Assembly (NCBI GenBank): GCA_033220425.1
Contig: CM065647.1
Coordinates: 5,084,001-5,148,000, forward strand
DNA length: 64,000 nucleotides
Source of the DNA: Lepraria neglecta
Taxonomy: Eukaryota > Ascomycota > Lecanoromycetes > Lecanorales > Stereocaulaceae
Direction: 5' to 3'
In this document: positions 29,321 to 55,645 of the stretch, one piece after another
How positions within the stretch are numbered: the first letter of the stretch is position 1
How the letters are laid out: every line of letters begins with the position of its first letter
Notes under the pieces: generated by a model
What the model saw: the letters and a program-made list of their open reading frames with translations, nothing else
Databases searched by the model: none
Told to the model about the DNA's origin: nothing
Program-made: the position numbers and the translations under genes

Positions 29321-29880
29321 GGTGGTGGAGTGGGTTTGATGGATTAGGTATGGGTTTGTTAAAGCTTGATGGAGGTTGGAGTCAGATGTGAGAGGTGGAG
29401 ATGGTTGTTGGAATACGTTTGGTTTCGCGGAGGTGCTTGGAGGTTTTATGGCTTCTGAAAGGATGTGTTGCGCTGAGATGTGGCAAGTGAGTTATGTGTC
29501 ACTGAAGAATGTCGCTCGACCTCGGTGTGAAGGGCTGTGTTGCTTCGGGTATATGTGTTCTGATCAAGAGACGCAAAGACGATGCCGGAATGACAAAGAG
29601 GGGAAAGCTGTCTGCCAAAGAGGTTTTAGCTGATGAAGGTCAGCACTCTGATTTGCACAGATGCACTGACCAAGCCTATTACACACAGGATGTCATGGGA
29701 TATTAAAAGAAGGTTATCTAGCGGCTAGTGATACAAATTTGCCTCTCAATAGGTGGATCTTTTGGTGGTGCCACTTGAGAATCTAGAACTCATATTGCTG
29801 GGCAACTTTTGAAACGGCCTCAGTGGTGATGGTGAGGGGTGATGGTTATTCCAAATTCAGACAGACATTAATAACGCTAT
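29321..29880. other. Spacer between paralogues
   Basis: 560 bp with no supported gene. It contains the promoter of paralogue 1 and the 3' flank of the frameshifted paralogue 2. Confidence 0.45.
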
Positions 29881-30407
29881 TCAATCGCCTCCAGATCTCC
29901 GCTCCTGATCCTCTCTCACGCCTCTCTGATACTCCATCTGATCCCTCTCCCACTCCTTCCACCTCCTCGCCCACTCCTCCCTATCAATCTTCTCCTCAGC
30001 CTCCCTCTCCTCAACCTTGGCCCCCTCCCAACACCCATCCGGACAAAACCAATTACTCTCCCACCTCTTCTTAACGCTCAAACAACTACACTAATCTCAT
30101 ACTCATAACACTCCTCCAGCTGTTTGAGCGATTCAAGTGGTTTCCCCGTATTGCCAATTCCGTAGCCGAAAAATTCTTTCTTTTGCTTACAGAGCTCGAC
30201 CATGCGATTGCCGTAGTCGGGGCTGGTGGCGATGGAAGCGTTGGAGGTGTTGTGGTCACGTATGCATTTGCGGGTGAGTGCGAGTTGTTCTTTTAGGATT
30301 TTGAGGGTGAAATTGGCTTCGATACAATTTTCGCTGTTGCAGGCTTGGAGGAGGAGGAGCTTCTGGCTGTGGCTGCATGCGTGGGTTATGACTTCATATT
30401 GGCACAT
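29881..30407 (-). pseudogene. Frameshifted paralogue 2 of the 28748 gene
   Basis: The N-terminal frame (30078-30407) reads MCQYEVITHACSHSQ then LTRKCIRDHNTS, KKEFFGYGIGNTGKPLESLK and QLEECYEYEIS, aligning throughout with paralogue 1. It stops after VVV. The missing C-terminal part is in another frame (29881-30081) and contains FCPDGCW and the Glu/Arg coiled coil. The distance between the shared EI and FC-DGCW motifs is 44 nt here and 45 nt in paralogue 1, so a single-base deletion near 30080 explains the break. An intron is unlikely because paralogue 1 has none there. It may be a pseudogene, a truncated protein, or a sequencing error. Confidence 0.75.
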
Positions 30408-31356: not shown

Positions 31357-31863
31357 TTAGTCTTGTGTCTTCAAGGTCCTGTCCGGATTGAGGAATGGTT
31401 CAAGCTGGCCGGTATCCTTGAGCCTAGCGTAGACCTCAGCTATTGAGATCAGCAATAGGCGCCTTTACTTCGAGAAATATCGTACCGCTTGATAATTTGT
31501 TCGTTCTGACTCATCCATGCGTCGTATACCCGTTGTGCTTCTGCTTCCCAGTGGGCGCGATTGCAGTACCTGAATGTGGGTTAGTGTTTGCTTCTGAGAG
31601 TCATGTCATTTGACATACACGGAGAGGTAGATAGCTCTATGGTCTTCCCGCCCATGGTACTGCACCCCTATTACGAAATGATGGCAGGGTAACGGGGTGC
31701 CTCCAACTTGTCCACGCATATGTTTTATTATGTAGCCGAGGGTCTCGTCGTTTGGTACTTGGCCATTGGCGTTGCGAATATAGAGCTGGACGGCACATGC
31801 AATTTGGCATTCGTATCTCGAGAACGTATGGTTGTTTATCGTAGCCTGAGTTGCTAACGCCAT
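31357..31863 (-). CDS. Array gene A, small protein family of unknown function
   Basis: Three exons (31619-31863, 31486-31569, 31357-31423; introns 49 and 62 bp) give 131 aa. The N-terminal block has FSRYECQIACAVQLY, then NDETLGYIIKHMRG, the conserved PLPCHHF, and HRAIYLSVYCNRAHWEAEAQ. The second exon ends IIKR, and the last exon starts LKDTGQLEPFLNPD. This copy has an extra intron, with an ideal GTATGT donor, just before the conserved HWE motif; the other six copies read through. The last intron sits at the same phase-2 position as in every other copy. No signal peptide, membrane segment or known domain is seen. It is the most diverged member and lies at the left end of the array. Confidence 0.68.
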
Positions 31864-34345
31864 GGCGAGGAATTTTTTAGATTGTTGGTAGTTTGAAGAT
31901 CGCTTGCATTTTTATTGTGTTGGAAGACCAAGTGTACTTAAAATAAGAAAGCTTGAAGCAGGCAAACCTAACACGTATTGATCACATCGCTGAGCTGACT
32001 TCTATGACAGGCGTCCTGCCGAAGGATTGTGCAAGGCGATGAAAGGATGCGAGCTGAACGATCATGTATCGGGCGATGTAGATGACAGGGAGAGACATTT
32101 GGAACGTTTTTAACGGATGATGATGATGCTCGTATATCCGTGAGAGCCCCTGAGCCCATGGTGTGGTCGATAAGCTATGCTGGACGCCTTCGTGATAGCA
32201 AAGGAATCGGCATCGGCATCCACTTGGGGGCAGTGTATGATTAATGAAACATCAGGGACAGATACGCGCAGAGGAATGGACATGAATCGGAGCTAATGTG
32301 AAAAAAATATAGGTATGATGAAGCGCTGGAAGGATTCATGGTCCTGAGCAGTCTTCAGGCAACTGGAGAACATCAAACTCGGAGAGTTTGACAACAAGAG
32401 GAAGCATTGTGAATGCGGCACATTAGACACGGGAGATAGGCTTCTTGGAATGAATATTTGAAGATCCTTAAATAGGGAGGCAAAATGTAATAGTCGTGCA
32501 GTGGCAATTTCGAAAGCCCCGAATCATGGAACGAATCGAGTTGCAGCCGAGACGTTATCCAACAGAAGTTTACGTCGTAAGAGTGGGGATGAGACAGTGA
32601 GATGTCATTCGAAACGTTGCACGTCAGGGACCGAGATAGTGTGTATGCAAGGTACGGCGCGGATTCAGGGTCGCAAATTGGCCGCTTAAGCGAGGTCGCT
32701 TTTTTGTCGCAAGGAGAGCCGCAGGGCTGAGGCTGATTTTGAGGAAGCTGTGACACGTCGCAGACATGTGACAGTTGTTGCCAAAGTGTGTAAGCTTACA
32801 TGAATGTCGCAAATTCGTGTCAGAACAAAGTCTTTGCTAGGGACAAGGCTGGCCAATCGTACAACGTAGGCATGTCCATGCCGGGATTTTGGCGTAGAGT
32901 CTTCTGGGGTTGTCCGAATCCTGCTCTCATAATTAAGCAGTCTGAAGGAACTGGAGGTTTCAAATACAATGGGGTCCATAGGAAGATTATGACACACCTT
33001 CTGCGACATCGAATTTCTACCCCGTGCCATCCCTCGAAGCTGTCGAAGATCTTTCGACATCCCTGTTGATAGGTAAAGACTAGCGAAATGAGTTCAGGTA
33101 GCCCTGCGCCTTCATGGTGAATGCCATTGGTGATAAAGTGCAGTGGTTGCTAGCAGGCGGGCACGAGCTTGCATCTGGATATTTCAGTCCCGTCGAAGGG
33201 GAACCCACAGCTAGACCCAAAATAGAACGCTGAAGAAACATGGTGTTAGAATCCTAGAATGCCTCAATTCACCCAAAGCCAAGAGTCAATAAATCATAGG
33301 AGGGTAAGAAGGAACAATTGAGGCAAAGTGGAAGCGGGAGCTTCGTGAGAACATAAATGTTACAAAAGGCCGAGTAGCATAGCACCTGATCATCCAATTT
33401 ACCGTGAATATGGTGTAATGTTGTGGAGACCGGCCTTCTGCATTCCAAAAATTGCTACAATTAGATCCGCACGGAGGAGAGGCAAATCACTGGATCCTTT
33501 AAGTCTTGAACGCCCATCGAGCAAATATTCAAGCTATATATAGAAGAGTTGCTGCAGAGGGAAGAAGGCGGAGCAGACGTGGATGAGGCAGATAGCCAGA
33601 TCAATTGATGCGCATGAAGAAAAGAATTTCCGTCTCATTTTCGGGGTGGCTTAGGTCGTGGGAAGGTCACCCTTCGGCGGAGGAATTCTCTTTGCGGGCA
33701 AATTAAAGAGAATGAGGTACGCAACCTTGAGAATAGTATCAACAGAGAGAAGGTGCGAGGCATTTTCTGCCAAGTTGTCCACTTTCACATTTGATTAGCG
33801 TTGCTGACGTAATCAAAATGCCAAGACTTCGAATGCCAAGGCCCGTTGTAGTTGAAAAAATCTGAAGTCTTCTGTCGCCCGAATTTGTCTTGCCCAACGC
33901 AAGCTTTGAATATACAAGAATTCTGACAGTCTATTTGCCTTGAGGTCATCAACATTGAAATAGTCGACAAGGGCTTGAGGCTCAGAAAGTGCCTGTTCCA
34001 AGGGGTCTACTGAACCAGGCCCTTGGGCAATATCGCTGTGACAAAGTGATACTTTGGCTCTACGAGAAGCCAACATGATATAGTTCCTGAATTCTGTCAA
34101 TATTATCCCAATACTGGATACATTAAAATGCACTATAGTGTTTGTCTTATCAAATTATTGCACATGACTTCTGAAAATCCAACTTGCTTATCCCATGCTT
34201 AATTTCATCTACTTTGAGATTTGACATGATTTTACGTCAATGCCTTTCCTAGTTTTCCTCTTGCATATATTAAATGACCATCTCAACAGCTTCAAATCCA
34301 CTCAACCATTGAACCTACAAACCCCGTTCTAGGTGTAAGATCAGG
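31864..34345. other. Gene-poor stretch after copy A
   Basis: 2.5 kb with no supported gene. A 106-codon minus-strand ORF at 33813-34133 has protein-like composition (FLYIQSLRWARQIRATEDF) but nothing to confirm it. A short word at about 32188-32205 (CCTTCGTGATAGCAAAGG) recurs near 41140, hinting at shared ancestry of inter-copy DNA. Confidence 0.4.
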
Positions 34346-34894
34346 ATGGCCACCTTTCTCACCTCACCCACGGAAATGCGCTTTCAAATTTACAAGGAGC
34401 TTCGTATCTTTGAATTTCAAAGCAATTACATCATCAGTACCGTTGAAAGATACCCGAATCAGTTCCGGCAGCTTCCGATTCCATACTTCAATTCTTCGAG
34501 TGAACAAACAAGTCAGCAACGAAGCACTGGAGATCTTCTATGGCTCAAAAACATTCAACATATCAGCAAATATCAGCACACAACTTCTTCCAAGCATGAC
34601 CCGCTATCGTGATTCACATCCGCAGCTGTACCTCTATCGCAATATTCGAAAATTCCGTCTACAAATTTGTCCACTTTGCTTTCTTCCGCCTGGGAAAAGC
34701 ACGCCTAAGTGAGTCTGGAGCTCATAGCAGGCATATTGAGTCAGCTGTCTGTGTTTTCCGAGAGAATTTGCTATCTCAGTGAGGAATCTCCAGGATCTGG
34801 GCTGTCGGGGAAGCTGATCAAGCAAGGGTTGGGTGAATTCTGGGAACACGTTATGGCAATGAGAGAGAGGGAACTTTTGAAGACGTCAAAGTGA
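34346..34894 (+). pseudogene. Degraded F-box-like gene
   Basis: Frame 1 begins MATFLTSPTEMRFQIYKELR, like the F-box-type start of many fungal proteins (LPTELRxxIYxxL). About 100 bp later a different frame carries SILRVNKQVSNEALEIFYGS, the motif that usually follows in the same proteins (ILRVNRQIxxEAxxIFYGxNTF). A third frame after 34712 continues with helical sequence to a stop at 34892. The gap between frames is too short for an intron, so small deletions are likely. Such F-box-like genes are abundant and expendable in filamentous fungi. Confidence 0.55.
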
Positions 34895-35453
34895 TCATGG
34901 CGATCGATGAAAGGGGCAGGGGGGTGTTTTTACTGTAACGCTGAAGCGGTTTGTTAGGGGATGATCTGGTATGCTCTGGGGCTTACCGTGTGGGATCCTC
35001 CACCAGGATCCATTTTATTAGAACTTAATGCTTTGTAGTTTTAATTTGTGATTAGGAGTAGCTTTTCATACACAAGAGACCCCAGTATTTCCTTGCACCG
35101 ACCCTTTTAAAATAAACGTGCAACGTAGAACCTTAGCCTGTCCAAAGGATTTATCGAGCCCGCAAATGTTCACCTACTGAAAGAAATGACAGAGCGTAAT
35201 TATTTCGGCATGCGGGACCCTTCCAGATTGCAGGAAAAGCCCAAGCCGTTTATTCCAGATCGAACCCGACTTGTAGTCTTTTCATTGGTGAACGCTCCAA
35301 AAGCCACCTGAGCAAGCTAGGATTGTTGGGCGTCCACTTCGATGCAAGAAGCCGAATGTACGCTATGGAAATGATGGATGATCTCAGACATTACGCATCG
35401 CAGACAGGGGTCTCTAGGCACTAGGTAGCGGTTGAGCAATTAAAAGAGCCATA

Positions 35454-35740
35454 GAATGTCTCTGATTATGGAAGGAGCCTTGGATGATGGTCATTGTGCA
35501 TCGCTTGGGACTAGCCAGCGGCATCGCGGCAAATCCAATTCGTTAACGAATAAGAGCCGGTGGAAGTGATCAAAAGCGTCATTTCAGGTGGTGGCCATGA
35601 CAGATGTGCGCCAAGACCACCGAGGCTCGCCCGAAAGATTTGCAAGGATGATTTTGAGGCTGGTGGCTGCGTCCAAAGACAACACTAAATGTCTCTGGTT
35701 GTGGAAGGAGCCTTGGAAGGGTTTCATTGTGTAGAAGGGT
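35454..35740 (+). repeat. Diverged direct repeat, about 234 bp apart
   Basis: ATGTCTCTGATTATGGAAGG and its continuation GAGCCTTGGATGATGGTCAT near 35455 recur near 35690 as ATGTCTCTGGTTGTGGAAGG and GAGCCTTGGAAGGGTTTCAT. The right copy runs directly into the MITE. Confidence 0.6.
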
Positions 35741-35820
35741 TCACCCCCCAACTGCGCAACCCAGTCAGCCCTATAGGGTTGCGAACTTGGGGGTTTGCGC
35801 ACTGGCGGGGTGAACCCTTC
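35734..35820. mobile_element. 87-bp MITE-like element
   Basis: GAAGGGTTCACCCC at the left end is exactly inverted at the right end and flanked by TA on each side (35732-35733 and 35821-35822). The inverted similarity continues inward through TGCGCAA and GCAACCC, so almost the whole element can fold into one imperfect hairpin. TA flanks suggest mobilisation by a Tc1/mariner-type transposase. The ends differ from those of the 2.4-kb pogo element, so that element is not an obvious parent. Confidence 0.75.
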
Positions 35821-36614
35821 TATCGCTTATCCAGGGCGTCGCTAGCTCTTTGACCGCTCCTTCCAATCATTCCCTCTTCTGCACCCGGACAGTCTCCTGC
35901 ATCTGCACAAAAACTAAACTCAGCGCTCCAGGCTCCTTGTGATACTTGTACGTCTGCCAGGCTAACCTCGATGGTCTTGACCTACATCTGTGATGTCTCC
36001 ACTCCTGGCCACCAACAGTGCAATTTCGCTGTCGCATGTGATGAATCCACCAATCTCAGGGAAGGCTCAACGCCTTACCTTTAAAGTTCCCCTTCTGGTA
36101 TCTTCCGTTGATCCCCTCTTTGTGAGATGGCGACTGTGTGACACACTATGAGGTGGCCTATTCTCCTTCTGTAAGATCAGAAAGCGCTGAGCAGCGAATT
36201 TTCGCCTAGGATCCCAGCTGTCATGCTCTTATCGTCCTGTCTATGAACCCCATGCACGTGCATCCATGTCGAAAGGCCGGCAGGAGATCATGTCCCGTGG
36301 ACGCTCGAATCCGAACAACGCCATAATAGTTACGTACTTTGTTTATCTACACCTCCTCGTAGCCTCTTAGCCATAGAAAGACATTGTGTGACGGGGTTTG
36401 TGCAGCTTACGAATTACATTGAACCTATGAGATGACCCACGAGATGAATTTCATTGTCGTCTATGCTAAACGACAAGTTAGCCTCCTTGGGCCCATGCAT
36501 CTTAGAACCAAGACAACTTCAAGTGCAAAGTTTCCCCTTATTTAAATCCAGGTCGAGCCCACCAATTTAGACCACAGTGACTTTCCAAACTGTTACACAC
36601 TACTCTCGCCTATC

Positions 36615-37058
36615 ATGGAACTCTCAGTCAACGGCCAAGCCTACTCAACATACGAAGCTCAAATCGCATGCGCCCTCAAGCTCCACATAAACACTGAGGA
36701 CGGTCCACTGAGTGACGAGACGATTCGCAGCATCATCGGCACCATGCGTAATGGTCTAGGAGCAGAGCCCATTCCATGCCATAATTTAGTCTCCGGACTT
36801 CAGAATAGCTCGGATGCTTCGCATAGGGCAATATACGACGAAGTGTGCAGCAATAAGGATCACTGGGAGCCAAAAGCAAAGGAAGTCTATAGGAAATGGT
36901 GGGATATGCATAGCGAGGTTGTCCAAAGGTGATTACATAAGTTTATTCTTCAACTAAATTGCAAAGAAACTGAGACATGCTGTAGGCTTCATGCTAGTGG
37001 AGAAATCTCGCAGTATCTACACACGGGCGAGAGTCCTTCAGGCCTTGAAGGAATATGA
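36615..37058 (+). CDS. Array gene B, small protein family of unknown function
   Basis: The only copy on the plus strand. Two exons (36615-36928, 36986-37058; intron 57 bp) give 128 aa. It is the clearest representative: MELSVNGQAYSTYEAQIACA (residues 1-20), then DETIRSIIGTMRNGLG (34-49), EPIPCHNLVSGLQ (51-63), HRAIYDEV (70-77), HWEPKAKEVYRKWWDMHSE (83-101) and VVQR, where the phase-2 intron falls. Exon 2 encodes LHASGEISQYLHTGESPSG. Cys19, Cys55, Trp84 and Trp95 correspond to the most conserved positions in the family. The protein is predicted mostly helical and soluble. Without the splice it would end at QR with a stop two bases into the intron. Confidence 0.75.
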
Positions 37059-40000
37059 AAGGATGCAGGTAGCTTGGATGAGACGAGATTGATTACGAAG
37101 GCGAAAACTGAACAAACAAGGTCTTGATTTTTGCTCGCGAATGATGTAATTAGGAACCTCCTAACAATTGAGATAAAAGATGAAAGATCATTGTCCACTA
37201 AGCATCCAAATTCTAGTGGAAGTGAGACGAGACTCCCTTTACACTCTTGCTGGAAGCTGCGTCAGCTGCAAGGCCAGTAGGTCAGGAGAGCCGTAGGTGT
37301 ATAGGTCACTGACTGGATGAAAAAGCTAGATTTGGTATACTTTTCGGATGCGTGAGGATTCACAACGTTTACTAGTAATCAGTTGGTCATCCACAGTTCA
37401 GGCCTCAATTAATTCCCTCGCTCATAGGTCTAAGGTTCTGTTCTGATACCTCCAAATGGTAGTCATTAGTCATGTCATACTGGTAAGTAGTTCGATTTTT
37501 GATTTGCCGGAGATGATTCTTCATTTCTAGCCAAAAGAATAGCCGCGAGATTTATTGAGTGCATGCACTGCATGATGCCAGGTGGTATCATTTCGGTCGA
37601 CGCTCAAAATACTGCAGAAAGGTATAAAAGTGAACGGCGTCTAGGACGAATATAGTCGGCTCGATTATCGTGGCTGGGGGCGTTGCTAGCAAATCTGGGA
37701 GAGACTAATATGGAACGGTCCTCGATCCATGCCAAATCGTGAGGTTATGAATCCTTCCGTTGTGAAAACGTGGCTGATGTGCACTGGGACTTATAGTCGG
37801 AGGTTGGTGGCGTTGATCTGTCCAAATGCAACAGCCTGCGCGTTGTTAGCGAAGGTGTGGGATGGCAATTACCTGGTTGCAAGGCCAATGAGTAAGCACC
37901 AGTCTTTCGATCATAAGCCCTTGATGGGTTGTAAATGGTCTCCAAGTTCGACTGCGTGGCGAAGGAAGACAGGATTTTCCATGTCTGCCGCGATCCCTAT
38001 TTAGCGAGTCAAAGCTTGCTCTTCTCCCGCTTGAACGCCCAAGGATCATCCCGGTGGCGCGAGTTGTCATAATTTCTATCAATGATAAGCCTTCGATGAA
38101 AAGGTCCAAGAGGATCATATCGTTCCTTGTCAGGAAATCTAGGCAGATGCGATCTTGAGCTTCATCATTCATGGTGAAGTAGGCTCTTTCTCCTTAAATA
38201 AAATCAAGAGAGGAAGGAAATGCCTCAAACAATACGCTCAGGTACCTCTAGGTTAGAATGGTCAGCTAGTCCTTCGGGTACCAAGAGCGTAGCTCATTTG
38301 AGAACAAGGTCGGTCGATCATTATTGGCTCAATTTCCTAACAATTTTAAGCGACCCAAGCACAAGCCTTACGAATCATGTCGACATCTCCCGTTGACTTC
38401 TTGCATTGGGGTTAACTATTCCATCTACAGTTAGCTGCTCGAAATGAAATCGAGCAGCTAACCGAAATCAGTCTAGCCGTTCGGTTATAGATTAGCAATA
38501 AGTCGGTGTAAATTATCCACCAGTCTATCCATCTAGGGTGTCATCCCACGCTGCTTTACCCTATCAGCTAGCAACCCTGGACCTTGGTAGGCCCTAGAAC
38601 CTGCATTCTTGCCAGCCGATGTGATCAGGACAAGTTGCGGACATGAACAAGCCTCACGGAGTAGGGCGACTCGAGTCACTAATACACAAAACAAGAAGAT
38701 CAGACCCTTAAACGTGTTGGTATTTGAACTCTTCTGATTTGGGCTTAAGGGGAAAGGGGGAGACCGCCACCATCATGTTCAATCCGCAGCTCCTATATAG
38801 AACCCATGGATCTTGCAGCCTTGTCTTTGCAAATTTCCTGAATAGTGCTGCGTTTTCCTTTTTCGCACCGTCTGTTAGGAACCGCTTTTTCTCCTGCAAT
38901 CCACATGCAAGCAATCGATGGCGTTTGACAACGGCGCGCGCTTGATAGTCTTCAAAGTTTAGTCTAACGTATCTCACCTTCTGACGACGACCTCCGTTCG
39001 CATTACCTGAGACTCATGGACTCATCTATCACCCTCCAACCTCCAGAAGGATGACGAGAGAGATGCGAGGGTATGATCAAGGGTACAATGTCAGTCAGAT
39101 CTCTAAAGCCTTGGCACAAGAAATTGAACGAGCGAACACGGGAGCTCATATGCCTCCTCTCGACTGTCCATTAAATATTTTGCAGCTGAGATCATTTTTA
39201 AGACGTAAGAATTCGTCGCGTGAGCACGGATGACGCTAGATGGTTGGATGAAACATACTGGGCCGGACAGAAACAGTGGCGACAGGCGGGAAGTTGGAGA
39301 GGATAATCGACTATGGAGTCAACCTCGTGTCACTAATTGAACCCAACGGCAGCAAGAAGACTACCCTAGACGCTTTACCTATTTTCAGTTCTTGCCTCCC
39401 GAAGCACTGGCTCAGGAAGTACGAGAATGATAGCAAGGAACATGAAAGAAGCAACAGAGTTACAGAAGAACATGAATAGCGCTGGCAACATTCAAAAACG
39501 GTGTTGGAAAGGACTTGGATAAACTGTGAGACAATATTGACGCAGGATGATTATTTGAGTAACGAGAGAAAGCAACACGACTCATCATGAAAGGTGGTAA
39601 AATAAGCGATACTGGGATGGCTCCAATGAAAAGACGCAGTCACTCTCTATCGACGGCCACAACTTCACGAGAACCCATGACATACCTTTCCAATTGGTAG
39701 GGGGCATTGCTTCCTTGATGAACTCTAGTGCCTCGCAGCGAGATTCTCCAGCTATGAGAGGATCATTGCTGAGTTGTTGGGGGGCTTCTCAGCTTTCAGT
39801 CTTGACCCGCAAGTCGGAGTCTCGGACTTAGGTCCAAGCTAGCACAGAACGTGCCTCTGCCTTGCAGCAGGGCCGCATGCAATCAAAGCGCCCATGCACT
39901 GACCACACCGATGACGTTATTCGCTTAGCCTCTAATAGCCAACGAAGCACAGGCGATATCAGCGACTCTGACTGCGAATGTGCTCTGAAGGGAGTAGAGT

Positions 40001-40193
40001 GATCTGACAAGGCCTTGAAGTGCGCGAATATTATTCATTATGTATGGTACGTAGCAGGAGCTTTAGATTGCAGAACTTCCACAACATAGAGACCTTCTCC
40101 CGCTTACAAGCAACCAGAATCCACGCCTCCCTATCCCTTTTGTGGTCTCCACTCTCGTATCCACTCCTCAATGCGGGCGACCTGCCTCCACCA
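37059..40193. other. Gene-poor stretch between copies B and C
   Basis: 3.1 kb. Short ORFs only. It contains a 13-bp-stem hairpin at 38430-38462. No supported gene. Confidence 0.45.
38430..38462. repeat. Perfect 13-bp-stem hairpin
   Basis: GTTAGCTGCTCGA (38430-38442) and its exact inverse TCGAGCAGCTAAC (38450-38462) enclose a 7-nt loop. A second, smaller inverted pair (TAACCGA and TCGGTTA) begins inside the right arm and closes near 38488. Confidence 0.8.
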
Positions 40194-40615
40194 TCACCCG
40201 TAAGGTCTGGAAGGCCGGTCCGTGTTCAGATAACTCATCGAGTTCCCTTGAGATCTGAGTCTGCATCATGATTTAGCCTCCAGCAGCTCCTGTTCAAATG
40301 CCATCAACTATACCTCTCGACCAACTGACTGTATGCGTCCCACCAACTCCGATAAGCTTCTCGTGCTCGAGGCTCCCAAGAAAATCGGTCGTTGAGGATG
40401 GTGGCGTATATATTGCGGTGGGAGGCATGAGGACTTTGTCGCAATGAGGAGACCAGATTATTGCAGGAGATGGGTTCGGCGCCGAGGCCATTACGCGTGG
40501 TGGCGATTATAGTGCCGAGAGTCTCCTCTGAGACCTGTGTGTAAAGTTGGAGGGCCACAGCCAGACTCAATTCGTCCGGTAGATACTCTTGGTTGTTGAT
40601 GTGGTGGAGAGGCAT
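40194..40615 (-). CDS. Array gene C, small protein family of unknown function
   Basis: Two exons (40314-40615, 40194-40260; intron 53 bp) give 122 aa. It starts MPLHHINNQEYLPDELSLAV, the most altered N-terminus: the usual YEAQ-x-AC block is DELSLAVAL, lacking the first conserved Cys. The rest is typical: SEETLGTIIATTRNGLG, PISCNNLVSSLRQS, HRNIYATILNDRFSWEPRAR, EAYRSWWDAYSQLVER. Exon 2 reads LRSQGNSMSYLNTDRPSRPY. An upstream in-frame ATG (40630) exists, but the chosen one aligns with the other copies. Confidence 0.72.
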
Positions 40616-43069: not shown

Positions 43070-43483
43070 CTAAAAGTACTGATGAAGCTCTCCTCGGGTT
43101 TGGAGTCTGCAAGTATGTCAGCTTACCGCTCTAATGAGCCGCAGATCATCCAGTTATGTCATGATGCACCTTTGCACAGCCTGGCTGTTGGCGTTCCACC
43201 ACCCGCGGTGGACCTCTCGCGCTTCTCGCTCCCAGTATGCCCGATTGCTGTTGACGGCGACCAATAGTGTGCGGCAGGGGCCGTTGGAGCCTTGCTGTAT
43301 TGCTGACACCAAGCCGCGGCAAGGTACCGACGATGTCCCGAAGCCATGTCGAATGAAACTTATGATACTGCCCAACGTCTCTTCGTTGACGGTGTAACCT
43401 TCCGAGTTGGAGTATAGTCTCAGGGCACATGCCAGCTGAGCTTCGTACTGCGAGTACTGTTGACCGTTGATTGAGAGCGCCAT
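43070..43483 (-). CDS. Array gene D, small protein family of unknown function
   Basis: Two exons (43170-43483, 43070-43106; intron 63 bp with a GCTGAC branch site and TTGCAG acceptor) give 116 aa. The order is MALSINGQQYSQYEAQLACA, then NEETLGSIISFIRHGFG, SVPCRGLVSAIQQ, NSNRAYWEREAREVHRGWWN, ANSQAVQR. The short exon 2 reads LQTRGELHQYF. The 5' flank of this gene is alignable with that of copy E for about 1.5 kb. Confidence 0.75.
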
Positions 43484-44945
43484 GTTGCCCGAGGTTGTGA
43501 CATTCGAGCTGAGGCAGACATTGCAAATATTTATATAGCCAACTGGAGAAAGGGACTCCGCAGGAAGCCAGAGTTATTTGAAAAGGGGCTCGCCAATGGT
43601 ATGCCCGATCACAACATTAATTCAACTCTCTATCAGACTAATAGATCCATTGGAGGTCAGAAAGTCTCTGGGTAGAGTAAAGGGATGAAAGCTGGTGCTG
43701 CTGAACAGATCGGCAGATTCAAGAGTCTTGCGTACAAATGAAAATTAAAGGGGCTGCCGCAAAGATTACGGTATTAGTTCAGCTCTGGAGCATATTACTC
43801 GACTCATTGGACGATGCAGAATTCCTCATCAAAGCAAAAAGTTGGGGCAAAATTCGAGACTGAACGATCAAACCTATTGCGATGAGGCTTCTAGGTATTA
43901 CGTCTCGGAGCGGCCGACTGCTTGAAGAGTTGATCGAACCGTCCGGAGTAGGCGAGATTGATCTACAGCCATGGAAGCCTGGGAAATGAAACGGATCAGC
44001 AGCATAGGACGAGTCAAGGAGCACAAAGCTCGTATAGCTGCAATGATCTCCCGAACCTGGGACGGAGGGGCCGCTTTTGGCACGGTGAGAGTGCCATCGT
44101 TAACCAACACGTTGAAGGAAAGAAGCTGTCATCATCATAGAGACTTGGCCTTCATTGGACCTAGATCAGGCGGCCAGTGATGCGAGCAGTAAGAGATACG
44201 AATAATAGGAGATGCAATCCATGCATTCTTTTTGGTAATGTGAAGGCTGAACACTCCATGGAGATATAGCATGATTCGCTCGTACTCTTCTGTCATCACC
44301 TGATTGGCAAGTCTAAATGACCGAACCCTGCAAGAGCGAAAAGCTCAAAGTTCGTGCTGAAGCTATTGGGAGAATGTGAAGCAAAGCCTGCCACTGGCTG
44401 GTCGGAAACCAACGTTCTCCTAGGCATCCACGTCTCCACTCCTCTCTTTATCGATGCTTCTCCTCCGTGTTCGCAGACGGGAGATGGGAAAAGATGAGCT
44501 AATAACGGAGCTGAATGACAAAATGACAGACAAAATGCCCGATGCACCCGGGCTATTGAATTCGAACGCAACGCCTAGAGAGTGATGTAAGAATCTCGGT
44601 GTTTGATACCAAAGACCAGGTCGAGGGTGGCTCCCAATTTGTTGATCAAATTATAGAACCTGCAGTAGAGTTCAGGCGCATGCCGTCAGCCTTGAGGGAT
44701 ATCAGCCAACCGCAAGGCAGAATCCAGCTGCCATGATATACTTAGAATCGAATTGGGGAACTTATCCGCCGGTGTCGAGAAGGTAGTAGAGTCACGGCTG
44801 TTCCGATAGGTATCGTGGTCTGGTATGACAGTATTACCCCAGCCATACATGCAAGCCAAGGCAAACCACCAGCGTCCCGAAATCCACAGACTATTCCCGG
44901 TCCGAAGCTTTAGAAGCATTCTTAGTATCTAAGCCACCTCCAAAA
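43070..44945 (-). repeat. Diverged segmental duplication, left copy (gene D unit)
   Basis: Matching landmarks occur in the same order at 43563/48074 (around TGAAAAGGGGC), 43621/48131 (CAACTCTCT to CCATTGGA), 43872/48226 (ACCTATTGCGA to CTCGGAG), 44370/48674 (AAGCAA and ACTGGCT) and 44922/49154 (CTAAGCCACCT). The offset falls gradually from about 4.5 to 4.2 kb, consistent with an old tandem duplication plus indels. Confidence 0.75.
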
Positions 44946-47583
44946 GCCTTATAGCGCCTTTTATGGGCGTTCTATGCCCCGTGCTGCAAGCCTTATCCGT
45001 GGCCCATTCAAAGTATCGAAAGAAGGCAATTCAGGCAACCAGCGCTTGAAAACGCGCGTTCGAGCGAGGTTTGCCTAGATTGCCAGTAGAGTGCTTGATG
45101 GTTCGCCAACTTTACTGACCTGAAGTAATAACTGAGCGCTTAAAAAAGGCCCCACATGGGCTCCAAGACTCTCTAATTTTGGAATATTCAGTTGGGATGC
45201 AAGCCAACGTCATAAGGGGTGTAGCATGACTACATGCTTGAGTTTCAGGAACGATACATGGTTCTCCTTGCCCAAGGGATACAACACGGGAGGACCCTGC
45301 AAGTGCTACCGATTATGAGACATATCTCTTCCGCTCCTATCCAGTATTAGGCTGTCGTCGGATGACACGTGTGATCCAAGACCACTCATTCCTAAGTTCG
45401 ACGGATAATTGTGCGTGGAATTTTGCCTTCCAATCTGGTCTGAGCAACATAGTTTACAGAAACCGCCAGATAACCCACGGGTCCTGACTCAGTGATTGTT
45501 TGCTCTGCGTTCCCATTAGACACTGAGCTTCCATAATAATTCAGTACACCAAGGGAACTATTTTTAGATAGATCGATGATGGTAGTCTGTGCGCTTCAAT
45601 TGGCAACCAAAGTACTAAGCCCACTTTCGTGGCTTGTGGAGGGAATGAGTCTTCATGACACGCAGAAACGAGGCACGAGAAAATATAAAGAGTTTTTTAG
45701 CGCTGCAGTAGGCCTGTAAGACGCTCGTTGGGTACCAACCCACGCGCTAATGCGGGGAGGGCTCATTGGTACCCAATTAGCTTCTTTGCGCGATACATCA
45801 AAAGCCATCGACCAAGGGAGTTTACTCTTGTCTTTTCCAAAAGGAGGCTGTGTTGTGATGTATGGGGTTGTCTTGGTCGAGATTCGCATCGAGTGTACTA
45901 AGGATGGCTTTGGACGGGTCCTCGCTACCAAAAGAATGATTTCCAGATCGGAAGAAAATTTAGACGCTTCAACAGTCTTTGAAAACCCAGCTCGCTGCAA
46001 ATGGTGACTAAACCTCACAAGGCTATTTCAGTGTTTTTTTCTTGATAAAACGACTGCTGAGTATCATTTGTTAGGCACCTTGACGGTAAGCTCATGTCTA
46101 AGGAAGACTTGCCTCAGCTCTCTAGAAATCACACTAGCGGGTATCGTTGCTTTCTTGGTAACGTCTGCCTGTTCTGAAAAGGCCGCATTTGTGGAGTGTT
46201 TTCTAGCACGGCCTAGTAAATGCATGTTAACCAAACTCAACAAGCAAAAGAACAGTGACATAATTTGCGCATACATGACGAGGATCTGGGAGACAACGAC
46301 AGGAACAAAGAAGACAGCACACATCGATAAGACCAAAGCTGAGGGGAAGTAGAGACATGACTACCCCAAGAAAGCACTAACCCCCAACCCCCAACAATCG
46401 TTGTATGCTTACACACATCAGAGGGGCTGTAGCTTGTCCATCATCGTATCGTGACTTCGAGTTGGCATCTTGTCCCAAACTTTGATTGATCTTCTGTTGT
46501 TAGTAAGAATGAAATTTCCATGGAAATCTTCAAGGCAATACGACGTGCGTGGCTCCCCGCCTTCCCGTAAGCTGGGGCTCACAGGGCAAATGTAATGGAA
46601 TGTACGCGGTTTAGCTCGCTCACGGAAGAGCTGTAATGCTGTAGGACCGCAAGAGAGCCATCATGCAAAACCTAAACGCTCCAACTGAAGAAGGATCAGA
46701 CAGCGCGCGGTCACGCTGTAACGAATGGTTCTGTTCCTGATTCCGTAATAGTTACCTGAAATGAACACCTTTAGACTTAATTGGCGTTACGATCGGGCTT
46801 TTAAGGAGACGCTTCTGTTTCATCCCATTACGTGATATACTCAATGGATAGCAATGCACTCGCTTGTGCGAGCATGGGGAGTTGGTAACCAACCGGATCG
46901 CAAGGCATCTTTGCTTACACGCTCAGATCATAGGTGGGTTCCTCGGATCACCGACCACGTGCGGAGAAGCATCTTTGCTCAAACAGAGTTTGGTCTAAGC
47001 TTTAGTCCTAAGACCAGTTCCGAAAGACCTTGTTGAACGTGAGCAAGGACTTGCAAAGACCTATCTCGTTTACCAAGTGGTTGACAGCTTTCAGGCCCTT
47101 ACCGACCTCAACAAAAGCATGTGACCATTCAATTTGCCGCTCTGGCCATTGCATCACTTGAACTGAAGTCGTTCAAGCTGCCACCAAAAGCTCAATTGCG
47201 AGCCATTGACCTTGCTACGGCGTCTAGGTACGGGAAGATCTCATCCGCGGTTCTCTCATTACACAGGAATGAAATTTGGGTCTTAGAAGTCCTCTTGCTT
47301 TGCATTGGACATTCTTTGATTCGCTTTTCAACCGCGTTTGATAGAAAAACAAAATCTCCTGTCGGACTAACATTTTGAACATGAAGATATTGCACAGCAA
47401 TTCGGACCACATCAGCCTAACTCGAGCCAGCGAGTACACTCCATCTCTGAAGAAAAAATAATATCCATTCAAGCAAGCCCCAGACACCCTTCTCCATTTT
47501 CATACCCTTTATACCGCCTGAGCCCAACGGAGGCGATTTGAATATTTCAAATCCCATTCGTGATTGTCCACCTAGTTGGTGTG
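43484..47583. other. Inter-copy DNA, includes the D half of a segmental duplication
   Basis: 4.1 kb with no supported gene. From 43530 to about 44945 it is colinear with 48060-49180. An ORF at 46064-46336 (-) begins with two hydrophobic stretches but stops after 90 codons with no recognisable family. Confidence 0.45.
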
Positions 47584-47980
47584 TCAGAGATTCTCGAATA
47601 GTGTTCCTTGAAGATGCAGTCTACAAGGAGTTAGCATGGTGCATCAGCCCATATAGAATAGCGAGTGGCTTTGTGGCCTACTTCTGGACAAGCTGGCTGT
47701 GAGCATCCATCCAGTCACGATAGACTTGTCTTGCCTCGCGCTCCCAGAAAGGCTCGTTATTACGGACGCCAGCAAGTAGATTGCTGTAGGTGACATCCTG
47801 ACTTCGTTGTAGCGTGCGGACGAAGTTGCCGCAAGGGAGGGGGGATGAGCCGAGACCGGTTTTCATGGTGGCGAGGATGCTACCTAAGGTATCATCAGAC
47901 AAGTTGAGGTATAGCTTGACAGCGCAGCCGACTTGAGCTTGGTACTGCGTGTAATCTTGACCGTCGATTCGGAACGCCAT
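47584..47980 (-). CDS. Array gene E, small protein family of unknown function
   Basis: Two exons (47682-47980, 47584-47620; intron 61 bp, donor GTAGGC, branch GCTAAC, acceptor TTGTAG) give 111 aa, the shortest copy. It reads MAFRIDGQDYTQYQAQVGCA, SDDTLGSILATMKTGLG, PLPCGNFVRTLQRS, NNEPFWEREARQVYRDWMDA, HSQLVQK, then exon 2 LHLQGTLFENL. The donor is the weakest of the family, but splicing gives the same phase and the same Leu-initial exon as the others. It is a sister of copy D by flanking homology. Confidence 0.72.
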
Positions 47981-49185
47981 GTTGCTGTTTGGGGTCTGTG
48001 GCGGAACTTGAATGAGCTGAAGCAACGCACTCTGAAAGGATTATATGCTCAGGCAGTTGGGCGTTATTCGAAGGCAGCCAGAAGTTTGTGAAAAGGGGCA
48101 ATCCAATGGCATGGCCAAAAGGCAGCATCTGTACAACTCTCTGGGACGCTGATGGAGCCATTGGATATCGAAGACCCGTTGATCAAAGCAAGAAGATTAG
48201 GGGGGATTGGAAATTGGATGTCCAGACCTATTGCGAAGACGCTCCAGGTACGATCGTATCTCGGAGATGCCGAAAGGAGAGTCCAACAGATCATTCGACG
48301 AGGTTATGCTGATTAGAGCCATGAGAACCTAGGAGATGATGCAAATCAAAGTCGTCGAGGGGCAGTCAGGGGTAATCCACTCGTACGGCTTGAACGATCG
48401 GCTGTACCTGACATGAGTATGGTCTTTGATAGGGTACTAACACGATCACAGAAGTGACACGTTGCTTCAACAAAGGCACTATAATCGCAGGTCATGGATT
48501 TTGCTCGAGCTAGGGCATAGTAGTAAAGACAGCCATGCCTGTCAAGGCATTAGATTGGACAATATAGAGACATATCTTGCAGAGTCCGTATTTGCTTGAG
48601 CACTGTTCAGTTCGCAAGTCTCAGTGGACCGCAAGTTTGTGAGATTAGAGGAGTCAACGTTAGGCAGAAGCTCCTGAGAAGGTAAGAAGCAAGCCTGTTA
48701 CTGGCTTGCCATTGATCGTCAACCCCGGAGGTTGCCCTTTTTTAGTACAGCTCTCTCTTAGCTTTTCACATATGAGCGATTGACACAAAGCATAAGACCA
48801 CGAGGAAGTCGGCATTGCGCGGCTCGACTATCGAACATAAGCGTCTATAATAAAATCCATTCAACAGGGTTAGCTCGGAAGAAAAAACATATAGAAATCA
48901 GACTCTTACTTCAGCCTTGAGCAATAGAGAGCCACTGAGGATACAAAACCGATAGTCTGATGATTGGAACTGGATTTGATACCGAGGAAGTGGGGTTCTA
49001 AGCGCCCTTAACGGCGTTCCCGAAAACAGCTAGCGTTCTTTTCAAGAAACCATTCGCCAGGAATTGATGCGTGCCCTGAATCTTACGTACATACCGTGCT
49101 ATTTATCAAGCCACTCATTATGGCATTCGTAATCGGTGGCTTCGGAGCTAGGTCCTTAGTCTCTAAGCCACCTAAAAATGTCCTC
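47584..49185 (-). repeat. Diverged segmental duplication, right copy (gene E unit)
   Basis: Partner of 43070-44945, same orientation, with the landmarks listed there. Confidence 0.75.
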
Positions 49186-51801
49186 ACTGTAAATAGCCTA
49201 TCTCAAGCCTAGATTCTGTTTGCCTGATCCCGCCTTTCTGTATAACGGCGTCAGAACGGTTCGCAATCCAGGGGAAGAGCCTCGTTTCACGCTATTGAGG
49301 CTGATTTCCATGCCTCTACTTGGGTAGTGCCTGGAGGGTCCGTTGTGGCTTGATGATTGCAGAAGGGGGCTCCGAGAATGCTGTGGGTCTAGCTGTAGGC
49401 TTTGATATTGCCGATTTACGACTCATTGGCTGGCATCTCACTAGGCAGTAGAGACGACGCGCTCGAGACGACACCATAGATATTGGGCATCCGAAAGTGC
49501 TATACGAGCTTGATGTTGACTGATGACGAAGAAGAGACGGGTTTGGGGGTATTACCGATTCGGATGAGCCTCGAGCATCTACACTCATGCCCACACTTAG
49601 CTCGTAGAGTATTTTGACGGATCTACACAACTCGTCCCTTGTCTTCAATGCTCAACTTGAAACTCCATTGGTGGAGTCAGTTGAGTCACAGGCATGTACT
49701 GTGGCTTAAGAAATAAGCTTCCTTTTGGCACCGTAGGATCTGAGATAGGGGTCCTGTTGTAGAAAGTCTGTACAATTGATATGTTTGATGCTATTATTAG
49801 TAGTTTGACCAGGTTGCAACGACGTCCTAAAGATCATATGGAGGGGATTTGACAAATGCGGTGAAGCCGAAGTCCACATCCCATTCTCCCCTTGGATCTG
49901 AGAATTTTATGCAGTTTGAAGCAAGAGGAAGATATCGGTGATTGGTCGCTTAGACACATTCGTCAAGAATAGTAGCCACTGACGGGGCTTATACTTTCGC
50001 CTCCAGTTGCAGGAGGTTCGCAATACTTTCTGGCGAACTGGTTCAAGGCAGACTTAGGCTAAGAAATAACGCATGTCTTTCGAGGAGCAAAATTGGGCGC
50101 AACAATGAGCTGAGGGACTAGCATAAGTTTTGCTTAAGTGTCTTACAGTGAAATATGGAGATGGAATAGGATTGGAAGGGGAATTCACTCATGGGGGCTG
50201 TGCATCGCTTATGCAAGATTTAGCGTATTCATGGATTTCTTGGCATTCCAATCCATCGCATCCCCCATACAATTTACATGCAAAACACGACAATCAACGA
50301 TATATCGACATATAAGCCATTCTGCCGTCCCAATTAAGTAAATATGAAAGCCCCGGTTACTATTTATAGGCTAATCCATTGTGTTGCAGTCTCGATATTG
50401 ACGCCTCTGCATGCGGACTTAATCTTTGCAGTAATAGCAACATAGTCGCCTACTGCATGAACACTGTCTCTAGCATTGTCAAGCTCTAGGCGTAGAAAGT
50501 CCGTAATGAAATTATCCTTCAGCCAATCATCTTCTCCAATAGCATTATCCATTTAACCCTGCTCCCTTGTTCCTTAGTCTGCGTTATTAAGGAGGCTCTG
50601 ACAGAATAAGTATATGGATTTTTCTGCCATTCTTCCAGGTTATCTTCTTCTTCTCGTAATCTTCTGTCTTCTGGATCCGTTAAGGGTGAGCTGTCCCTAT
50701 TATCTTGTTATCCAGCCCCCTGACTAGCTTGATTGACTACTTCTCCTTCTCCTTCTCCTACTCCTTCTCCTTCTGCCGGTCTTGGTCTACCTTTATAACC
50801 TTGTTCCCTGAGTGCCGCCGCTTCCCTTCGCTCCGCCGCAGCAGCCTGCTGGAGAAGAGTCTGCGTTTCTCCTGAGTAGCTTTCTTCTTCTCAGCCTTTG
50901 AGAGGGCCTGACTCATAGTGAGTCGCCGACTTGCTAACGGTGGACCCCAGGTTTTTCGTATGGGCTTGGGGGCGCCTGGCGCCCTACCTTCTTTTTGCCT
51001 CCACCATTCCCACTAGCGGCAGTACTGTTCTCCGGCTAGTCGTCAGCGAATCGCACCGCCTTAGGGGGACGATTGCTCTTCCGCGCAGGTTGCTGGGGGC
51101 CGGTAGGAGGGGTGGGAGGGGTTATCCCAGGTCGAGAGGAGCGCTGTCCAGGCATTACAACACCTTCGTATTCGTGTACAGGCGGTTTCTAGGCTTTAAA
51201 GTTGATATATGGTGGATTATATGGTGATTTATCATGTTTTGCATGTAAATTTGTATGGGGGATGCGATGGATTGGAATGCCAAGAAATCCATAAAATCAT
51301 GAATACGCTAAATGGCTTTCCGGGCAACTAATTAGGCTGTAGAGAAGCTAAAAGATGGTACGTGGATCATGCAGCTATCCGTCAGACCACACTTTCGGGA
51401 TCCATCGCTTGCAGAAAAGTTCACGTTCCTGCTACGGAGTAGAATTCCGGTCATAGCACCTAGCACCGTTAGCATCCTAGAAGGCAGATCCACCGCTACC
51501 TATGCCAGGACCCAAATGTCGAACGGGCTCATATCGATCTTATTCTCACGCCATCACGTACATAATGGTTACTTAACATGAAACGGACAAGCTTAAAGTC
51601 GAGAATGCCCAGACGCAGCTTACTACCTTAGAATCCCGTGATCAGTAATCCCTTGATTATTGCTAGCCTTACGCTCTTGTAGACCCGTTTTTTGTCACAC
51701 TGTCTCTAGGACCAAATCTGATCGCCAATCGAACTTGTCTGAGTGCGTCGTCCGATGTTTGATTCCTGACAGCATCGGATGTCATTTGCGCTGTCCGAGG
51801 C
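47981..51801. other. Gene-poor stretch between copies E and F
   Basis: 3.8 kb. The first 1.2 kb is duplicated DNA related to 43530-44945. An inverted-repeat element occupies 50219-51313. No other gene is supported; the ORF at 49316-49648 (-) has no recognisable feature. Confidence 0.45.
50219..51313. mobile_element. 1.1-kb element with long terminal inverted repeats
   Basis: The left end (from 50219, ATTTAGCGTATTCATG onward) and right end (to 51313, reading inwards in reverse complement) match over roughly 80 bp with a few indels, including GGCATTCCAATCCATCGCAT and TTTACATGCAAAACA. The inside holds a CTCCTT-rich simple repeat (near 50730-50780) and minus-strand ORF remnants rich in Lys/Glu (KAEKKKATQEKRRL). 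It looks like a non-autonomous or decayed DNA element. No clear target-site duplication is visible, so the exact boundaries are uncertain. Confidence 0.7.
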
Positions 51802-52243
51802 TCAATTGTGTACCGTTGACCTCGTAGCTGCTTCCAAATAGGGGCTGATCGCTTGCTCTTCATTGAGTCTGCATCATAAGTCAGCATGCTGCATATACTG
51901 GCTGCAAGTAAAATATAGTGACATGCCTTTGGACAATCTTGCTGCACCCATTCATCCAGGTTCGATATGCTTCTCGTGCCCTGGGTTGCCAGCGTGCCTC
52001 GTTATTGATAACGGCCTCATGTATAGCGCGATGGGGGGCGTGCAAGCTTTGCGGAAGTGCGGAAAGTAAGGTATGGCATAGAACGGGTCTTGAACCCAGA
52101 CCTCCTCGCATGAAGCCGATGACGTGGCCAATCGTCTCGTCGCTCAATGTGTAGATATCTGAAGGCTTTACGTATAGCTTCAAGGCGTATGCAATTTGGG
52201 CCTCGTAGTCCGAGAATGTTTCGTTGTCGTAGGAGAGGGTCAT
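51802..52243 (-). CDS. Array gene F, small protein family of unknown function
   Basis: Two exons (51927-52243, 51802-51868; intron 58 bp) give 127 aa. The donor is GCATGT, so this is a GC-AG intron; the acceptor GATGCAG equals that of copy C. It reads MTLSYDNETFSDYEAQIAYA, SDETIGHVIGFMRGGLG, PVLCHTLLSALPQS, HRAIHEAVINNEARWQPRAR, EAYRTWMNGCSKIVQR, then exon 2 LNEEQAISPYLEAATRSTVH. The first conserved Cys is Tyr here. If the intron is retained, translation runs 14 more codons to a stop, so an ORF scan gives a wrong C-terminus. An ATG 35 codons upstream is in frame, but the chosen one matches the family. Confidence 0.72.
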
Positions 52244-54005
52244 GGTGGCGGTGATGGTGGGTATAGTAAGATTGCCTGGGCAAAGGATGAGTGTCTGCTT
52301 GTTATGCGGCTGTCTCGATCCGAGGACACCAGGTAAGGAGGATTGCAAGACTGGAAGGCAGTTTGGGTAAGTACTGCAAAATGACGGTTAGAGAACGAAG
52401 TAGGGGTGAAGTAAGCAGTGAAGTACATCAATTGAGATTCGAGAGACGTCGAGTGTGTGTGTTTACGGGCTATTTCAAAGGCTGACGCTCGACTTATATG
52501 TTAGGAGCCTGAGCCTAGGAGAATTCACTTATTATAAGTGATACCTAGTCTCAAGAGTCAAGGTTGAGTTTTTTCGTTGAATGAAGTAGTAGCGCTGAAG
52601 TAGAACGTTAGAGGTACATGGCTCGAGCAGCAATTAAGTATCCTCAACTGCATTTGGCAGGATGCGGCTAGTGCGAGCACATCAGAGGAGGCGTATCGAC
52701 TGCAGTGTTCTATTGTGGGAATCAGGTCGAAGGTTCCGAGTAGCGGATTTCAATCCGAGCAGTGTCCACCAACAATATAGCGCCTTGTTAGTTCCAGAAC
52801 AGCTACGCGTGTACTCCTCCTGGGGCGTCCCAGCATCAAGGCCACGAAATGTGGCCGCACCATGGTGGAGATATTAGAATGATTGTTGCTCAGAATGGAT
52901 GACTAAGGAGAATGACTCGACTTGGGGGTTCCGATCAGGACGAGGTTGAGCTCTTGGTGGTGTTTGATATACAGGCCCATAGTGAGAACGATGTGACGTG
53001 CACAGGGATGCTCTAGGTGCAGTTCGGCGGCTAATGCAGCTGCAACGGTCCGCTGCATACATTACCCAAAGTCATGGAGGCGAAAGATCGTCACCTATTG
53101 ATGGATCGCACTGATTTTTAAGGGGTAGCTTTTCACAGTGGAAGATGGCCAACCTCTCAAGCCAGTCCGAAGGCTTGCTCGAGTGATTCAACGTATAGAG
53201 CCGAAGTAGGCAGCTGATATCGATGCGCCCAATTGGGTAGAGTGCGGGCACGACCAAGAATAAATTCGTAAAGCTGGCATTATCGGGCACAATGATGATC
53301 TCCATATCTCTCAAACGTAACGACTTTCGCAAGGATGAGGTAATGTGTGACGGCGGGAAAGACCAAGCGAAGGATACTAGACAGGCACCACCATGGAACA
53401 TAAGCAAAACCGCCAATGGTCCATCGACAGCGAATGGTCATGGGCACCAACATCCTTGTGGGCCTCTCAATTTGAGCTGGGTCCGTGCACGTAGGCAGAT
53501 TCGGAGAATGATCAGCGGTATCATCACAAGAATCCAAGGGCTGAGACGACAAGGACGCGCATGCCATGATAAAAGAACGGAACAGGCCGTTGAGTACGCA
53601 TCCTCAGCCTTAGATCAAACAACCCTAACAGTAGGTCGGCGCCAGCGGCAACGGCAAATTTCTATAGTGCAACGGGAATGGCGGGAGTGCAACCTTGAGA
53701 ATTCAGATAAACCAGTAGTTCATGCTTGCCAGGGATGTTGGCAACCTGGCTAAGATTTGTCCTAGAACCTTTCACGGATGCATTCAACTCGTGGCACTTC
53801 GGCAGTGGGGACAGCGAAACGTGGGATTAGTCCCCTTAATGTGACTTCCCCAATGTAACTTCTCCGTGACGTCGTTTCAGCCTTGATGGTAGATCTATAT
53901 TTGGAATCGTCACGTTCCATTTGGCGCTGAGCTGGGTAAAGTTTGGATACTGAAGGAACAGCCCTATATTGTTATTGGCCAATGCCGTCCGGATTCCTGT
54001 GTTTT

Positions 54006-54104
54006 GAATTGCTCACCGCTCAAACGATGGAAGCCTTGAGTTGAACCAGTTTGTGACGGGAAGGTGATTTCTGAGTCGTTCGAATTGCTCACCGCTCAAA
54101 CGAT
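54006..54104 (+). repeat. Exact 23-bp direct repeat
   Basis: The 23-bp word that starts GAATTGCTCACCGCTC occurs at 54006-54028 and 54082-54104, 76 bp apart. Confidence 0.85.
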
Positions 54105-54193
54105 AGAACCTTCTAGGCATTCGATTTTGACGTCTAGAATTGCCGAGAGTTGGTTTTGCCTTGCTGCTCGAAATTGCCTGTGTCCTGGAACAC

Positions 54194-54283
54194 TGCCAAT
54201 CAAGATCCCAGTATCATTAATCACAATAGAGCACAATTTGCCAATCAAGGTTCTAGCATCACTAGTCGCGATAGAGCACAGTT
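54194..54283 (+). repeat. Two 45-bp tandem units
   Basis: Units beginning TGCCAATCAAG and containing ATAGAGCACA lie head to tail at 54194-54238 and 54239-54283, diverged by several substitutions. Confidence 0.75.
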
Positions 54284-55185
54284 CTCCGGCTTCAATTTTA
54301 CGACATTTGTGACTTGTGTCACTGGTATCTACAATATCAATTGCTGTGAGAAAGGGGAAGAATTTTGGGAGGATTTTTATCAGATCAGATTGATAAGGGT
54401 AACCTGTAACTTTCATCGGATCCGCTGCTTAGCGCCGAGCTCGTCGGCCGAGGTACTGTAGGTCTCGAACATTTTGATATTGCCAGCAACTGGAGAAAGA
54501 TATCATCAACATATTGATGTATTTCCTTCATGAATCTATCTCAAGAGGAGTAATCAAGGAAAGTACTAGGGTTTGGAGAACACATACCAACTTAAGGGGT
54601 TTCTTGCTACATTGTCGAATTTGGAAGATGGAATTCAACACCAAAAGCAAGTCTGAGCCGAGCCTCAGGTAAAGGCCACGTTGCGACTTGCATGCAGAGG
54701 TTGTAGCAGCACACTATCTGAGTCGGCAGTGCAAATCGCGTGGTTTAGGGTAGCCTCCGTGCTAAATAGAGAGCGCCAACAAGGCTGACAGTTAGTTCGT
54801 AGCCTGTTCGTTGTGTAGGGTAGCCTTGATATCTTGTAGAGCTCGTCGACAAGATCATAGCCTGTTCACATGAACCTGATCACAATGAACAAGGCTATAG
54901 CCTGATGCCTCATTCTAAGGAATTTGATCACTAGGACAATGCTATAGCCTTAATCCGCTGTTTACATATTGCTGGCAGAAGGATCCAAGGCAAACACAGA
55001 TCTAAAAAGAACCTTAGATCTAGATACAGTGAATCAGATTCATCCTGACCAGGCAGGTTGTAAGATACAGGTATCCATCTGATCGAGCCGCCTAGAACCT
55101 TCATCATCCACTCCAACTCATCTAACCGTATCACCAACCACTCCCTTGTGCCCTTCCAGTGCGGCCCACCTGCCCAGCTTTAAGC

Positions 55186-55645
55186 TCATCCCTGTGTTCT
55201 TGAATGATCATCCGTGTCTAGGTATGGGAGGATCTCTCCTTGGGCATTGAGTCTGCGCACTGTATCAGCTTCCTTCACTAATGAGATGACCTTTGAACTG
55301 TTCGTAGAGTGATGTCTGGAGGAAGCGTTGGGTCGGGATTTGATACCTTTGAATGGCCTGGCTGTGCATATCCCACCATCTGCGATAGACTTCCCGAGCT
55401 TCAGGCTCCCAGTGGGCTCGATTGTTGTAGACGGCGAGGTAGACATAATGATAGAATGGGTGGGAGCTTTGCTGTAGTGCAGTGACCAGACCCAGACAAG
55501 GAATGGGCTGTGAGCCGAGACCTTCTCGTATAGTGCTGATGATGCTGCTTATGGTCTCATCGTTGAGGGCACAGTACAGCTGGAGCGCGCAAGCCAGCCG
55601 AGCTTCGTATTTGGAAAACCGTTGACCGTTGTGGATGACTTCCAT
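55186..55645 (-). CDS. Array gene G, small protein family of unknown function
   Basis: Two exons (55347-55645, 55186-55252; intron 94 bp, the longest in the family) give 121 aa. It reads MEVIHNGQRFSKYEARLACA, NDETISSIISTIREGLG, PIPCLGLVTALQQS, NNRAHWEPEAREVYRRWWDM, HSQAIQR, then exon 2 LNAQGEILPYLDTDDHSRTQ. This exon 2 is closest to the family consensus. The intron is open in the reading frame for most of its length, so an ORF scan extends the protein with unrelated sequence. An upstream in-frame ATG (55777) would add 44 residues with a hydrophobic stretch, but no other copy has such an extension. Confidence 0.74.

Follow-up and report, generated by a model that had tools for sequence, protein, structure and literature searches.

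An array of seven related small-protein genes in Lepraria neglecta, and a larger relative in the same genome

What is the role of seven small, related genes that stand in a row in a fungal genome and encode no domain that can be named? The question is raised by a 64,000-nucleotide stretch of the ascomycete Lepraria neglecta (GenBank GCA_033220425.1, contig CM065647.1, positions 5,084,001 to 5,148,000; hereafter the window), which is part of a 42.0-Mb assembly of 11 contigs. Its spliceosomal introns and gene content point to a filamentous ascomycete, and no match to 5.8S rDNA was found in the assembly. A preliminary description, made from the letters of the window, had proposed seven genes of 111-131 amino acids between positions 31357 and 55645 and had taken them for rapidly duplicated members of an accessory island. 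We find that these genes, A to G, are one old family under purifying selection, with a further stand-alone copy (H) and a larger, diverged relative (X) elsewhere in the same genome. The reading that we tentatively prefer is that A-G are long-standing, functional genes in an array, all with two exons except A, which has three, and that each encodes one compact intracellular domain that may interact with X-like proteins.

Seven genes of one family

All frames of positions 30000-57000 were read, which yielded seven open reading frames (ORFs) with the motifs described earlier, and these were spliced at GT-AG sites, or at GC-AG sites in gene F. The resulting models have the same outer coordinates and lengths as in the preliminary description, 31357 being the end of A and 55645 the start of G. 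Gene B alone lies on the plus strand:

31357-31863, minus strand: gene A, three exons (31619-31863, 31486-31569, 31357-31423), 131 amino acids
36615-37058, plus strand: gene B, two exons (36615-36928, 36986-37058), 128 amino acids
40194-40615, minus strand: gene C, two exons (40314-40615, 40194-40260), 122 amino acids
43070-43483, minus strand: gene D, two exons (43170-43483, 43070-43106), 116 amino acids
47584-47980, minus strand: gene E, two exons (47682-47980, 47584-47620), 111 amino acids
51802-52243, minus strand: gene F, two exons (51927-52243, 51802-51868), GC donor, 127 amino acids
55186-55645, minus strand: gene G, two exons (55347-55645, 55186-55252), 121 amino acids, query for the structure model

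That the array is one family was demonstrated by tblastn of the genome with B, which matched the other six copies at E-values of 2.0e-14 to 4.4e-32, a similarity far beyond chance. The same query detected H on contig C8 (3534316-3534720, minus strand, E = 3.0e-20). The same places were recovered when G, H and A, or a consensus made by hand, served as queries, except that A was not listed with the H query, which also returned a weak match on contig C3 (E = 0.047) containing two stops; copy numbers from these genome searches should be read as 'at least'. Decayed extra copies in the window were considered and rejected, a six-frame scan with a hidden Markov model (HMM) having returned the exons of A-G and five rows with E-values above 1.

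A common gene structure was likewise demonstrated. In all eight stand-alone genes (A-H), an intron of 48-94 bases interrupts the same codon in phase 2; the split codon specifies Arg, or Lys in E, and the first full codon 3′ of the intron specifies Leu in every case. A second intron, 49 bases long, lies further upstream in gene A, and the intron of F requires a GC donor. Protein identity among the array copies is 33-55%, A being the most diverged (33-41% to the others). In a MAFFT alignment of A-H with X, seven residues (A20, T31, G44, C50, W79, A83 and W90 in G numbering) are identical in all nine rows, and L101, the first residue past the conserved intron, is identical in A-H and alignment-dependent in X. 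The shared pattern noticed earlier thus holds at these positions, whereas the letters of its YEAQ, DETIG and HWEP blocks vary between members.

Age and selective constraint

When A-H were compared by the Nei-Gojobori method, the proportion of nonsynonymous differences (pN) was lower than that of synonymous differences (pS) in 28 of 28 pairs. The synonymous distance (dS) was infinite, i.e., saturated, in 8 pairs and 0.86-3.12 in the remaining 20, for which the ratio of nonsynonymous to synonymous distance (dN/dS) was 0.16-0.56; with dS so close to saturation, these ratios are approximate, and the averages could mask a few fast sites. The near-saturated synonymous changes, together with pN below pS in every pair, indicate that the array is old and constrained rather than rapidly duplicated. 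The dN/dS comparison that the preliminary description had suggested supports the selection on the proteins for which it had argued and lends no support to its view of rapid duplication. A neutral simulation that ignored indels left the first 300 coding bases of G open in 11.9% of runs at 0.2 substitutions per site, in 3.8% at 0.4, in 2.1% at 0.6 and in 1.3% at 1.0.

In the DNA self-comparison, matches between copies were confined to exon 1, most of them stopping within a few bases of the exon edges, and no such match covered an intron. The exception lies upstream of D and E, where 48069-48165 matches 43559-43654 (70% identity, E = 4e-4) and 48182-48273 matches 43828-43917 (71% identity, E = 0.005), indicating that at least one duplication took upstream DNA along. 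Kept despite the age of the copies, these stretches possibly reflect shared regulation. No common promoter motif was found, as no 8-mer occurred in more than three of the eight upstream regions, the same as in shuffles, and the duplication order had support at none of six inner branches. Codon usage, by contrast, does not set A-G apart: codon bias in this DNA is weak, and their scores (0.00 to 0.12) overlap with the values of other ORFs.

Predicted fold, a larger relative and a possible role

The fold of the domain is predicted with confidence. AlphaFold2, run on exon 1 of G with the nine-row alignment, so that the C-terminal tail from the last exon lies outside the model, returned a β-hairpin and five helices with a predicted local distance difference test score (pLDDT) of 91.2 and a predicted template modelling score of 0.82; four of the five models had a mean pLDDT of at least 90, and the fifth 69. 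No significant structural relative was found in the PDB by Foldseek or VIA-align. No member reached a Pfam gathering cut-off (best E-values 0.071-0.19, one member each), and Pfam, NCBIfam and PADLOC gave no acceptable match for the family. Both the Pfam search and the structure prediction had been proposed in the preliminary description, and its statement that no domain could be named agrees with the outcome in the libraries searched. A CUT/POU-type domain, suggested by a likeness of the tail motif to a CUT consensus, was rejected, since nothing else spoke for it but two Foldseek rows without significance (TM 0.32 and 0.33 of the query). Hydropathy was also in accord with the earlier description: the highest 19-residue mean in A-H was 0.93, which speaks against a membrane segment, and no signal peptide was apparent from hydropathy, the top N-terminal 10-residue mean (1.74, in C) lying within the first predicted helix and not at the start. 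The net charge of the domain, −6 to +2, is near neutral or acidic and suits contacts with protein rather than nucleic acid.

The larger relative, X, is a spliced protein of 467 amino acids (G000:C1 3662057-3663514) whose start codon and splice sites were chosen by us. By tblastn, its 322-amino-acid ORF on contig C1 was matched at E-values of 0.05 (B), 1.5 (G), 0.01 (A) and 0.02 (consensus) and was not listed with H; in the reverse search, the X domain retrieved B (E = 0.008) and A (E = 0.05). An HMM built from the spliced proteins A-H scored 33.9 bits against X (E = 2e-8 if 14,000 proteins are assumed), and 2,000 shuffles of X reached at most 8.8 bits. The domain occupies about residues 202-322 and is ~11 residues longer than those of the array. 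An intron of X falls in the same column and phase as the array introns in the HMM alignment, a coincidence that depends on that alignment, as MAFFT gaps the end of the domain differently. Although X shares the domain and this intron position and phase with the array proteins, it is four times longer and has flanks of another kind: an N-terminus rich in proline, serine and threonine, with basic clusters and a net charge of +10 across 200 residues, and a glutamine-rich C-terminus. Many nuclear regulators have such an N-terminus together with a glutamine-rich C-terminus.

The existence of X leans toward a regulator or interaction role for the array. Each array gene would supply one intracellular compact domain, a hairpin with five helices, followed by a short C-terminal tail that the last exon encodes, and would most likely act by protein-protein interaction. 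The stand-alone domains may form pairs with X, or with one of its partners, or else compete with these, individual copies having been tuned through divergence. We infer this interaction role, and its tie to the function of X, from the shared domain. The nearest known mode of action would be that of microProteins, single-domain relatives of larger proteins, of which the cases described are in plants and animals, as far as the two sources go (PMC6003976, PMC4807768). The array proteins resemble them in being small, with one compact predicted domain and a short tail, and in having a larger relative by sequence in the same genome. They differ in that known microProteins interfere with larger complexes, whereas the array is likened to them from sequence and predicted structure, and in that a long array does not figure among the known cases as these sources present them (PMC6003976, PMC4807768).

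Several observations weigh against this proposal. X has diverged to an identity of 22-26% with A-H, single-sequence searches reach it weakly (E = 0.01-1.5), and with H not at all. Pfam found no match in X, and no second domain was recognised. The structure model of X is less secure than that of G: when X was placed first, the best model reached a pLDDT of 88.9 and the other four 54.6-60.2. In addition, residues 32-79 of D weakly matched PHROG_6463, a helix-turn-helix (HTH) DNA binding protein (E = 0.0049), and several HTH proteins were among the weak rows of the structure searches, which we treat as a lead.

The last two points would fit a divergent HTH-like DNA-binding module, in which case the array would encode small transcription regulators with a DNA-binding activity of their own. 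The PHROG_6463 likeness is limited to that segment of D, is missing from the other eight of the nine members and is probably due to chance; no Foldseek row was significant, the best VIA row for G was a non-HTH protein, and the net charge of the domain speaks indirectly against DNA binding; we consider this explanation unlikely. Effectors and self-recognition factors had been among the speculations of the preliminary description, and small, diverged, multi-copy proteins without a known domain could be effectors exported by an unconventional route, or self-recognition factors kept diverse in an array. Unlike a classically secreted fungal effector, however, the array proteins have no N-terminus that looks like a signal peptide (hydropathy only), and their average pattern is purifying rather than diversifying, although a few fast sites could be masked. 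The domain is also common to X, an intracellular-looking protein, and we would be rather surprised if this alternative held.

Two further explanations fare worse. Cys50, identical in all nine rows and located in the loop preceding the third helix, might mark a small enzyme or a redox or metal protein. No second Cys and no His, Asp or Glu is invariant across the nine rows, the invariant Trp, Ala and Gly residues look structural, and no enzyme family was matched; this makes such an activity very improbable. Decay of a formerly active family into pseudogenes could be argued the low codon-usage scores of the copies, from the GC donor needed in F and from the transposon-type repeats within the array. 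All seven frames are nevertheless open despite near-saturated divergence, few runs of the neutral simulation kept the first 300 coding bases of G open, the intron is kept in all copies, and pN is below pS in every pair, leaving scarcely any room for decay.

We retain the tentative view of compact domains that may interact with X-like proteins. A bolder form of it, which we regard as improbable, is that an unnamed domain family comprises one nuclear-looking larger protein and eight maintained stand-alone copies, seven of them arrayed, that act as microProtein-type regulators with a fold absent from solved structures. Should competitors of X indeed come from the array, a fungus would possess a microProtein-like system in amplified form; none was among the literature matches listed, which is not proof of absence. 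Many orphan multi-copy families exist in fungal genomes, and since the array is one of them, the surprise is moderate. With its invariant residues and a confidently predicted fold that lacks a Pfam entry, the family is in any case a clear-cut subject for structural and deletion studies.

Spacers and neighbouring sequence

The six spacers between the array genes measure 2.5-4.8 kb each. Three of them, those between A and B (32000-36500), D and E (43700-47500) and E and F (48200-51800), were searched against the genome. The D-E spacer (43700-47500) is single-copy; 3.8 kb of single-copy DNA without a recognisable gene is unexpected for a compact fungal genome. The spacer 48200-51800 contains a transposon-like element of ~1.1 kb (50218-51313) with terminal inverted repeats of ~100 bases that are 83% identical, and related pieces occur on contigs C1 to C8. 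At 35743-35823, in the spacer 32000-36500, lies a short palindromic repeat resembling a miniature inverted-repeat transposable element, with relatives on several contigs and other repeats adjoining. Decay by repeat-induced point mutation (RIP) was considered and rejected, the composite index being negative in 32 of 32 bins. The decayed surroundings described earlier are thus borne out in part, by repeats in two of the three searched spacers, but not by a RIP signature or by the single-copy spacer. The supposed accessory island found no support either, as composition and RIP indices of the array region resemble those of the rest of the window.

A Pfam scan of 10 other ORFs in the stretch gave none above its curated cut-off. 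This fits the earlier opinion that A-G are the only convincing genes here, which is plausible but unproven because codon usage hardly discriminates between genes and other ORFs. On the plus strand at 34278-34709, two overlapping frames look like pieces of a single gene whose frame is broken; their Pfam match to DUF7730 was weak (E = 0.097) and under its cut-off. To the left of the array, on the minus strand, a second small family occupies 28748-29491 and 29887-30407. It consists of an intact ORF starting MCWYD and a neighbouring relative (31% identity) with one in-frame stop; no Pfam match was found for it (190 residues tested), and a genome search gave no copy elsewhere.

Outside the window, an ORF ~5 kb from X resembles ribosomal protein S6, which we presume it to be. 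H is flanked on contig C8 by long ORFs on either side. A 1014-amino-acid ORF near it (L023 6192-9236) is presumably an aspartyl-tRNA synthetase that carries an extra domain fused to its C-terminus.
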